NCBI RefSeq assembly: GCF_014217785.1
Contig: NZ_CP048814.1
Coordinates: forward strand, 2,108,001 to 2,172,000
Length of the DNA: 64,000 bases
Source of the DNA: Rhodococcus triatomae
GTDB taxonomy: Bacteria > Actinomycetota > Actinomycetes > Mycobacteriales > Mycobacteriaceae
Reading direction: 5' to 3'
The translations under genes and the position numbers were made by a program. Positions 40,749 to 42,806 of the stretch are shown here, in pieces (the stretch's first letter is position 1; every line of letters starts with the position of its first letter). The notes below the pieces were generated by a model. It searched no databases, was not told where the DNA came from, and saw nothing but the letters and a program-made list of their open reading frames with translations.

Positions 40749-41933
40749 TCAGCCGGGCAGGCGCACCGGCATCAGCAGGTACGTGTACTCGCTGGCCGGT
40801 GCGGCGAAGGATCCGGAGTCGTCCGGCTCGATCGTCTCCTCGCCGGCCGGCCGGAGCACGGCGGGCCGGCTCGGCGTGGTGAATCCGAACAGGACCTTCT
40901 CGCTGTGCAGCGACGACAGGCCGTCGATGAGGTATCCGGGGTTGAACGCAATGGTCAACGCCTCCCCGTTGAACTCGGCCTCGAGCCGTTCCTCCGCGCG
41001 CCCGGCATCGTCACCACCGGCCGCGAGCAGCAACCCCTCGTCCGAGAACTGCAGACGCACCTGTGCGCCGCGTTCCGCGACGAGGGCCACGCGCTTGATC
41101 GCATCGACCAGAGGCGCGATCTCGACGCTCGCCATCGCGGTGTGCTCGGCGGGCAGGAGCTGACGGAACTTCGGGAACTCCGCGTCCAACAGGCGCGTCG
41201 TGGTGCGGCGGCCGTCGGCGACGATGCCGAGCAGTCCGTCACCACCGACGGCACCACCGGCACCGAGCGCCAGCTCCACGGGGGAAGTGGCGTCTCCGGG
41301 AAGGGTTTTCGCGGCCTCGGACAACGTCTTGGCAGGGATCAGGACTGCGGCACCGGTATCCGCGGACGCGGGGATCCACTGCAGTTCCCGCACGGCCAGA
41401 CGGAACCGGTCGGTGGCGGCGAGGACGATGGTGTCGCCCTCGATCTCGAGCCGGATACCGGTCAGCATGGGGAGGGTGTCGTCCTTGCCCGCGGCCACGG
41501 CGACCTGGCTGATCGCCTGGGCGAAGACCTCCGCCGGGATCGTCCCGGTCTGCTGCGGGAGCGTCGGCAACTGCGGGTAGTCCTCGACCGGCATCGTGGG
41601 CAGGGAGAACTTGGCGCTACCGCAGGCGATGAGAACCCGGGTGCCGTCGAGCGTGACGTCGACGGGCTTGTTCGGTAGTGACCGAGTGATGTCGGCGAGG
41701 AGCTTGCCGGACACGAGTACCTGACCGACGCCACCGACCTCGGCCGCGACCCGCACCTGGGCGGACACCTCGTAGTCGAAACCGGACACCGTGAGGCCCT
41801 GCTCGGACGCGTCGAGGAGGACTCCACCGAGAACCGGGACGGGCGGCCGGGAGGGCAGACTTCGGGCCACCCAGGCAACCGAATCAGCGAATTCTTCTCG
41901 GGAGACTCGAAACTTCAGGCTTCCAAGCTCCAT
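40749..41933 (-). CDS. dnaN: DNA polymerase III sliding clamp, beta subunit
   Basis: Ring-shaped processivity clamp of 394 residues with three tandem clamp domains. The N terminus [21 protein letters not shown] and the C-terminal [12 protein letters not shown] are typical. ATG 41933 is chosen over upstream frame extension to 42038 because the family starts here ([10 protein letters not shown]). The strong actinobacterial order is dnaA, origin, dnaN. Its promoter should lie in the 41934-42150 part of the origin gap, on the minus strand. Confidence 0.97.
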
Positions 41934-42149
41934 CGCCCGGTCGTTCCTCTCGGTAGGCACCAAAAAATTCTCTGCGCGGCCGTCCGCTGCACGGTCCGGA
42001 CCTGACGTCTCGTCGACGATCGGGTGCCGGGACCACACAGTCTTGCACAGCTGACGCTCGACAACGGTATGCCCTCGAGGCCCGGCTCGGTAGTCGAATC
42101 GTGAGGGGCACGATCGACTCGAGGACGGCTGTGCACCGGCGTGATCCCC

Positions 42150-42380
42150 AACCCCTGTTTTGAAAGAAGTTCTTGGAAGGGAAGAACAGCAGTACTATTA
42201 GGCCCTGTGGAATCTGTGGACCGAGGCCGGTAACCGCAGGTCTCCGCCCACTGCCGGATGGGGAGAACTCGAGGACCAACTCGAGGACAAATTCGTGGTG
42301 CGTGTGGACTACTCGAGGTTGTTCACTTTCGTCCACCGTCGGTCCACAGTCTATCCACCTCATCCCCACAGTTATCCACA
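42150..42380. other. oriC: oriC core: AT-richer stretch and DnaA-box cluster
   Basis: This part of the dnaA-dnaN gap holds a cluster of DnaA-box-like 9-mers: TTATCCACA (42372-42380), CGGTCCACA (42340-42348), CTATCCACC (42351-42359), TCGTCCACC (42329-42337), TGTGGACTA (42303-42311, reverse), TGTGGACCG (42215-42223, reverse) and TGTGGAATC (42206-42214, reverse). Next to them 42155-42200 is about 64 percent AT against a genome near 30-35 percent, a plausible unwinding element. Position between dnaA and dnaN and the boxes make an origin very likely. Between 41934 and 42150 no gene is seen. Confidence 0.88.
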
Positions 42381-42467
42381 GGTGTGAGTGCGTCGCTGCA
42401 GGCAGAAGTCACGGCGTGTCGGTGCGGCGTGTCGCGATCCGGCCTCCCGCGGCGCCACCCCGAATCC

Positions 42468-42588
42468 CTCGAGGCCACCCCTCGAGCTCGCCTCGAGCCG
42501 ACCTCGAGCGGGCACCTCGAGCGCTTCCGGCACGCCACCTCGAGCGCACCTCGAGCCCGGCTCGAGCGGACCTCGAGGTGCGCTCGAG
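42468..42588. repeat. Ten CTCGAG palindromes phased at about 11 bp in the origin gap
   Basis: CTCGAG starts at 42468, 42481, 42492, 42503, 42516, 42539, 42550, 42561, 42572 and 42583. Six of the nine steps are exactly 11 bp, two are 13 and one is 23. The common unit is about CCTCGAGC plus three variable bases. Since 11 is not a multiple of three the array is not coding, although it leaves several frames open. Six further CTCGAG sites lie nearby (42074, 42118, 42268, 42280, 42312, 42750). The spacing near one helical turn places the palindromes on one face of the DNA. Confidence 0.92.
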
Positions 42589-42676
42589 CCGCTGATTCCC
42601 CTCGACTCCGACGTAGGCCCCGTGAGCAGCCCCGGTGGAGCCGCTCCTGACCGCTCCTCAGTGGGTGAAGGGATAG

Positions 42677-42727
42677 GGGTGAAGGGCACCTTCAGCAGGT
42701 CAGACCGGTCGAAGGTGCCCTTCACCC
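42677..42727 (-). terminator. Perfect 17-bp inverted repeat downstream of dnaA
   Basis: GGGTGAAGGGCACCTTC (42677-42693) and GAAGGTGCCCTTCACCC (42711-42727) are perfect complements with a 17-base loop that itself contains GACCGGTC. It lies 80 bases after the dnaA stop and separates it from the CTCGAG array. A terminator is the likely role. Confidence 0.75.
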
Positions 42728-42806
42728 AGGAGGGGCCGAGGAGAGCGGACTCGAGGAGACGGGGGCGCGGGAGACGGAGATCGGGCGTGGGAGGGAGAGC
42801 TGGAGG

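Follow-up and report, generated by a model that had tools for sequence, protein, structure and literature searches.

A CTCGAG array in the dnaA-dnaN gap of Rhodococcus triatomae as a candidate origin methylation mark

Introduction

To our knowledge, how high-GC Gram-positive bacteria keep their origin from firing twice is poorly known. In the stretch of 64,000 nucleotides of the Rhodococcus triatomae genome analysed here (the window), ten CTCGAG palindromes lie within 121 bp in the gap between dnaA and dnaN, and the locus raises the question of what such an array does at an origin. Our main reading, to which we give a probability of about 0.7, is that the array consists of densely packed recognition sites for a conserved, probably cytosine-5, methyltransferase encoded about 276 kb away together with vsr, and that it would serve as an origin mark working like Dam/SeqA.

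Such clusters have been described. According to the passages of Blow et al. (2016; PMC4752239) that concern them, a search of methylomes for non-coding regions in which the motifs of orphan methyltransferases cluster turned up four conserved cases. Each lies at a putative origin, the motif being GATC in Gammaproteobacteria, TTAA in Arthrobacter, CTAG in Haloarchaea (so the figure legend) and CTCGAG in Nocardia. The Nocardia cluster lies between dnaA and a DNA polymerase III gene and correlates with an orphan methyltransferase, which recognises CTCGAG (PMC4752239, same passages). The preliminary description of the R. triatomae array knew of no origin element of this form; that view has to be given up, as the clusters of 2016 lie at the same place. 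Judged by sequence, the array belongs to this kind, and resembles the Nocardiaceae clusters (Fig 6B of Blow et al., in the part concerned) in motif, place, bacterial group and kind of correlation with a methyltransferase. What is added here to the 2016 description is the near-11-bp spacing, a core doublet, Vsr, a gene that we call X and clades with the enzyme but without the array: the words 'Vsr', 'spacing' and 'helical' are absent from the main text of that paper (PMC4752239), and its passages on the clusters mention neither gene X nor enzyme-positive, array-negative clades.

Results and Discussion

The origin gap and its CTCGAG sites

The gap measures 873 bp (41934-42806) and lies downstream of dnaA and upstream of dnaN. 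Its features and the flanking genes are as follows.

40749..41933, minus strand: dnaN, start taken at 41933
42074..42123, no strand: two more CTCGAG sites, starts 42074 and 42118 (44 bp from start to start), towards the dnaN end of the gap
42268..42317, no strand: core CTCGAG triplet, starts 42268, 42280 and 42312 (spacings of 12 and 32 bp), between the DnaA box and dnaN
42372..42380, plus strand: DnaA box TTATCCACA, exact match, between the core and the array
42468..42588, no strand: ten-site CTCGAG array, adjacent steps of 11, 13 or 23 bp, the fast-evolving outer part of the origin cluster
42677..42727, no strand: strong hairpin, stem of 18 bp, −39.4 kcal/mol, z −6.7, located between the array and the end of dnaA
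42750..42755, no strand: single CTCGAG site, adjoining the 3' end of dnaA
42807..44477, minus strand: dnaA, its C-terminus used as the gap boundary in relatives

The array sites start at 42468, 42481, 42492, 42503, 42516, 42539, 42550, 42561, 42572 and 42583, with steps of 13, 11, 11, 13, 23, 11, 11, 11 and 11 bp, and our recount of the exact positions agrees with the number and steps first given for them. Together with the six sites outside the array, the gap holds sixteen. The array had also been described as a noncoding origin element, and this was borne out. Within one mismatch of TTATCCACA, which we take to be the DnaA-box consensus, the gap contains a single DnaA box, outside the array; the array sites do not match TTATCCACA, and the array is not a DnaA-box cluster. 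The hairpin, which has no T run, may terminate dnaA transcription or act as a barrier between it and the origin. In an alignment covering 42180-42460 of the window, sequences such as TCCACAGATTCCACAG and CACCTGTGGATA, in addition to CTCGAG, hardly vary among the origins of Rhodococcus and Prescottella.

The cluster is far beyond chance

Dinucleotide shuffles of the gap contained on average 0.90 CTCGAG and at most 6; none of 5000 reached sixteen sites, and none reached ten in 121 bp, in line with the original assertion that chance cannot produce such a cluster. Chance or base composition was thus rejected as the cause. Eighteen 20-kb stretches of the same genome held at most 3 sites per 121 bp and 5 per 870 bp. 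The cluster is real and lies far beyond chance. The expectation of one site per approximately 3 kb in the preliminary description was, on the other hand, two- to threefold too low against the frequency in the window (97 CTCGAG vs. 39 in window shuffles) and in the genome sample formed by the eighteen stretches (10.7 per 10 kb). A maximum-order Markov model accounts for the latter frequency (384 observed, 397 expected), and a genome-wide over-representation of CTCGAG was rejected as the cause since there is no excess over the model. The genome has 17 places with three successive sites separated by 1-30 bp each, 9 of them in the dnaA-dnaN gap and 8 elsewhere; the control search with the reversed pattern gave 3 places. 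A search for a deamination footprint at CTTGAG and CTCAAG gave nothing clear. Flank counts were taken around exact CTCGAG matches and are uninformative on the constancy of the six bases themselves.

A candidate methyltransferase is encoded with Vsr

The genome of R. triatomae (4.77 Mb, one contig) has two matches to PF00145, one of which is our candidate for the array enzyme.

G000:C1:1873617-1874777: candidate C5 methyltransferase, PF00145, about 276 kb from the array

The protein has 387 residues from the chosen start, the open frame extending further upstream, and carries the motifs FxGxG, PCQ, ENV, QxRxR and GNxV, the complete C5 set under what we take to be the names of these motifs. A vsr gene, encoding a Vsr mismatch endonuclease, starts 10 bases past its stop. 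At this locus no restriction gene was found beside the candidate, so that the arrangement of a type II restriction-modification system, with a restriction gene adjoining the methyltransferase, is not seen there; the enzyme would be an orphan by its gene neighbourhood, an unlinked restriction enzyme of an unrecognised family being possible. Vsr was present in the neighbourhood examined for each of the 30 best methyltransferase matches, R. triatomae itself among them, and in 9 of 11 further methyltransferase loci; in some loci the two genes lie about 870-1000 bases apart.

Vsr repairs the T:G mismatches that arise by deamination of 5-methylcytosine, as is established for the Dcm-Vsr pair. We know of no origin cluster of Dcm sites. 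Like that pair, the R. triatomae locus combines a C5 methyltransferase with a Vsr mismatch endonuclease; the target is a different one. The pairing suggests an m5C mark, and a modification at CTCGAG would probably be 5-methylcytosine. CTCGAG has been reported, in the relevant part of a methylome study, as a probable m5C motif in Micrococcus luteus (PMC6346199).

Other methyltransferases of the genome were considered as well, within the families PF00145, PF01555 and PF02384. The second PF00145 enzyme was dropped because it goes with genes matching the NaeI and NgoMIV families, which it adjoins (L007:9420-12795; G000:C1, about 646919-650294). Two restriction genes thus lie beside one methyltransferase at L007. 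A search of the genome for PF01555 methyltransferases gave no match. PF02384 had three; two of these are HsdM-like, each followed by a specificity-subunit gene, and were dropped as type I enzymes. The targets of type I enzymes are bipartite. The third PF02384 methyltransferase, which is unclassified, is also a possible array enzyme.

Array and methyltransferase across the family

We drew 161 genomes of the GTDB family, R. triatomae included, and had a listed dnaN place for 150; left out were one genome with no DnaN match (G043) and 10 others without a listed dnaN place. A further genome, G096, was set aside as its dnaA was not on the same contig, which left 149 complete dnaA-dnaN gaps (the main set). 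With at least 73% identity to the candidate methyltransferase as the threshold for an orthologue, and G010 (48% identity) and G119 (65%) counted as enzyme-negative, an orthologue was found in 60 of the 149 genomes. The non-coding gap held four or more CTCGAG in 44 of these 60 but in none of the 89 genomes lacking the orthologue, where no gap had more than one site. Gap lengths overlap between the two groups. The density of CTCGAG in the gap was 10.9 per kb with the enzyme vs. 0.29 per kb without; among the 64 six-base palindromes, CGATCG ranked second in the gaps of enzyme carriers, at 1.21 per kb (0.53 without the enzyme). In the genus coded g22, G081 alone has the gene, and its gap has 10 sites; its five sisters, without the gene, have 0-1. 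In 6 genomes with a distant homologue (49-56% identity), the gap has 0-1 sites. The three-site pattern, searched over 301 genomes, matches many other places too and was left out of the statistics.

A named set of 80 dnaN loci, 78 of them with enough upstream sequence, overlaps with the above, since 32 of the 150 genomes match a named locus by sequence. At least four sites were present in 47 of the 78. The carriers, by name, belong to Rhodococcus, Prescottella/R. hoagii, the R. phenolicus group, Aldersonia and Nocardia, so that the comparison with Rhodococcus and Nocardia gaps proposed at the outset found the array in both. All 24 named Nocardia loci carry it, with 6-10 sites each. The genus coded g23 is taken to be Nocardia from the spacing patterns it has in common with those loci, though it has no sequence match to them. 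The array is absent from Williamsia, Tsukamurella and the R. oryzae/spelaei group.

Two of the records appear out of place: L314 (titled Kitasatospora arboriphila) and L323 (Acidobacteriaceae bacterium) have dnaN regions like those of Mycobacteriaceae. L314 matches a genome of g11, a code shared with Williamsia, and L323 is placed only by 77% DnaN identity; both are likely to be mislabelled or contaminated.

How many evolutionary events stand behind the association was read from a quick DnaA tree with long branches (148 rows; G082 was left out as too short). The methyltransferase gene requires 4 changes on this tree and the array 5. Supported branches yield only 2 independent pairs, a number that does not suffice for a sign test; they agree in direction in 1.8 of 2 cases on average, and opposite directions never occur. 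Because the events are few, Fisher p values overstate the association, which relatedness inflates. The association of gene and array is thus strong in its pattern and weak in the number of events.

The enzyme also occurs without the array, namely in the 16 of 60 main-set carriers with fewer than four sites. In the Rhodococcoides group (g6), 9 of 10 main-set enzyme carriers fall below four and the tenth has 4 scattered sites, and 12 of 12 further carriers of this group have 0-1. The same holds, with fewer than four sites, for all 4 enzyme carriers of the Antrihabitans group (g16) and for the single one in each of g26, g28 and g31. The enzyme is therefore not sufficient for the array.

These enzyme carriers without the array, and the small number of independent events, are what would be expected if the array were bound by an ordinary sequence-specific protein, such as a nucleoid protein, a repressor or a segregation factor, and the methyltransferase co-varied with it merely by descent. 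We regard this as unlikely. Descent would not readily explain why no gene-free genome exceeds one site in spite of overlapping gap lengths, or why the sole gene carrier of g22 is also its sole array carrier, and CTCGAG is, in the passages cited above, a methyltransferase target (PMC4752239).

Neighbouring sites are in helical phase

From 24 distinct patterns we took the adjacent spacings of up to 80 bp, 153 in all, some of them interdependent. The peak period was 11.0 bp, with a mean cosine of 0.515; jittered nulls averaged 0.07, and none of 2000 was as high. The signal at 11.0 bp persisted when tandem runs were collapsed (0.504), and the mean cosine at 10.5 bp was lower (0.387). Neighbouring sites across the genomes thus sit about 11 bp, or multiples of it, apart. 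Adjacent steps in the R. triatomae array are likewise in phase: their mean cosine is 0.69, a value reached by 4 of 5000 random arrays. Taken as a whole at 10.5 bp, in contrast, the ten sites gave an R of 0.26, which 2408 of 5000 nulls equalled or exceeded, and the two runs of 11-bp steps are offset from each other by about 200 degrees on the helix. The idea that the palindromes occupy one face of the helix hence holds from neighbour to neighbour and fails for the array as a whole. Phase between neighbours is what pairwise cooperative binding needs, and a spacing suited to a multimeric protein, also put forward in the preliminary description, would fit cooperative binding at close to 11 bp. It would equally fit any multimeric binder, including one indifferent to methylation. 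SeqA in vitro requires a pair of GATC sites separated by two to three turns of the helix, and the GATC sites of E. coli oriC are themselves not phased, according to the relevant passages of PMC5145175.

The core and the outer array differ in constancy. Across seven aligned Rhodococcus/Prescottella species the 12-bp core doublet is invariant and its flanks vary; the third core site is absent in R. qingshengii. The doublet TCCTCGAG-N4-TCCTCGAG was found in all 32 enzyme-bearing genomes of g1, g10, g22 and g27, and in none of the 28 other enzyme carriers or the 89 enzyme-free genomes; the g23 genomes have arrays without this doublet. Steps in the outer array are uniformly 12 bp in the R. jostii/opacus group, 15 bp in G075 (g10) and 11 bp in R. 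triatomae. As far as the alignments tell, the outer array turns over while the core doublet stays constant in Rhodococcus/Prescottella.

Uniform steps of 12 or 15 bp that differ between species are also what a neutral tandem expansion of a GC-rich unit of 11-15 bp, without function, would leave behind. We consider such an origin of the array hardly credible: the spacers of the R. triatomae array differ from unit to unit, as those of a plain tandem repeat would not, the core doublet stays invariant amid variable flanks, the spacings keep near multiples of 11 bp with the tandem runs collapsed, and none of the 89 gene-free genomes has a cluster.

How a methylated array could act

Returning to the array as the target of the conserved methyltransferase, the reading best supported is that of an origin-local methylation mark that would work like Dam/SeqA but outside that system, with another motif and another class of enzyme. 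The job of such a mark would probably be replication timing. Passage of the fork would leave the origin hemimethylated at CTCGAG; a multimeric protein, possibly the methyltransferase itself, would bind neighbouring in-phase sites cooperatively and hold back the re-loading of DnaA for as long as re-methylation is pending, in the manner of SeqA and Dam at E. coli oriC. The vsr product would meanwhile repair T:G mismatches at deaminated 5-methylcytosines. What the sequences show is the cluster, the enzyme gene with its Vsr neighbour, their co-distribution and the spacing; the CTCGAG specificity is that published for Nocardia, and in this scheme we infer the m5C, the dependence of binding on hemimethylation and the effect on initiation.

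The two systems share a cluster of palindromic methylation motifs by DnaA boxes, with a neighbour spacing suited to a cooperative reader. They differ in that the motif here is CTCGAG and not GATC, the enzyme is of the PF00145 C5 type and comes with Vsr instead of being an adenine methyltransferase, and SeqA is a reader there, whereas here only the sites and the enzyme gene are known. A search for SRA domains, as a possible reader, matched 0 of 161 genomes and also 0 of 14 controls, and is therefore uninformative. The Arthrobacter TTAA and Haloarchaea CTAG clusters are likewise clusters of orphan-methyltransferase motifs at origins, according to the passages concerned (PMC4752239), but with other motifs, modification types and lineages. 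Among the matches listed in searches of the open-access literature, judged by title and the start of the abstract, we recognised no paper on such a system beyond Blow et al. and the M. luteus methylome, and no functional test of CTCGAG origin clusters.

A methyl-marked origin in an easily grown Rhodococcus would bring the question of double firing within reach of a single gene deletion and a methylome. Relatives with and without the array carry orthologous enzymes and form a natural comparison, and the array itself provides a bait for the reader.

Gene X adjoins the methyltransferase in some relatives

In three loci that we read (L040, L243 and L244), a gene for a protein of about 280 residues, X, lies between the methyltransferase gene and vsr; in L241, X adjoins the methyltransferase gene and vsr was not found there.

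L040:641-1501: example of gene X, adjoining the C5 methyltransferase gene

X was found in 40 of 301 genomes of the family at E below 1e-120, a 41st match being weak. Of the 60 main-set genomes with the enzyme, 22 carry X; it was not found in the R. triatomae genome. No matches were obtained in Pfam (4 proteins), in NCBIfam and PADLOC (2) or among PDB sequences (1). An alignment of 8 sequences showed invariant E/D residues and an SIK motif. These residues would suit a nuclease, and on this reading X is a candidate restriction enzyme. In a quick tree of the methyltransferase with 64 rows labelled by the presence of X in the genome, 32 rows came from genomes with X, several of them early-branching, and supported branches force at least three changes in the presence of X. 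Repeated loss of X from an ancestor resembling a restriction-modification system is therefore plausible from the tree.

A restriction-modification system with X as the restriction enzyme would make the array a by-product. The nuclease-like residues, the position of X beside the methyltransferase in four loci, its presence in 40 of 301 genomes and the share of X genomes in the tree, early branches included, all speak for such a system, but X has no library match, was not found in R. triatomae, and goes with fewer arrays: among main-set enzyme carriers, 37 of 38 without X have the array vs. 7 of 22 with X. This contrast is tempered by 9 further X-less genomes of the Rhodococcoides group, all 9 without the array, and by G140, likewise X-less and array-less; clade membership thus explains much of it. 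For the same reason, loss of X as the event that makes the array was rejected as anything beyond a partial cause. Overall, we hold the array to be a restriction by-product with very little probability.

A fuller version of the methylation-mark reading, which we offer only tentatively, is that the mark is a Vsr-guarded m5C set by a methyltransferase derived from a restriction-modification system, with X lost repeatedly, and that a multimeric reader at in-phase CTCGAG pairs would sequester oriC in Rhodococcus and Nocardia. If true, this would be a SeqA-like control built from unrelated parts.

Methyltransferase and X also occur together in G178 and G207, of the Tsukamurella group (g30), ten main-set members of which are without the methyltransferase. 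One of the two genomes has 2 CTCGAG in the gap, and the other has 1, counted over a gap sequence that stops short of dnaA. The two genes were possibly gained here by horizontal transfer.
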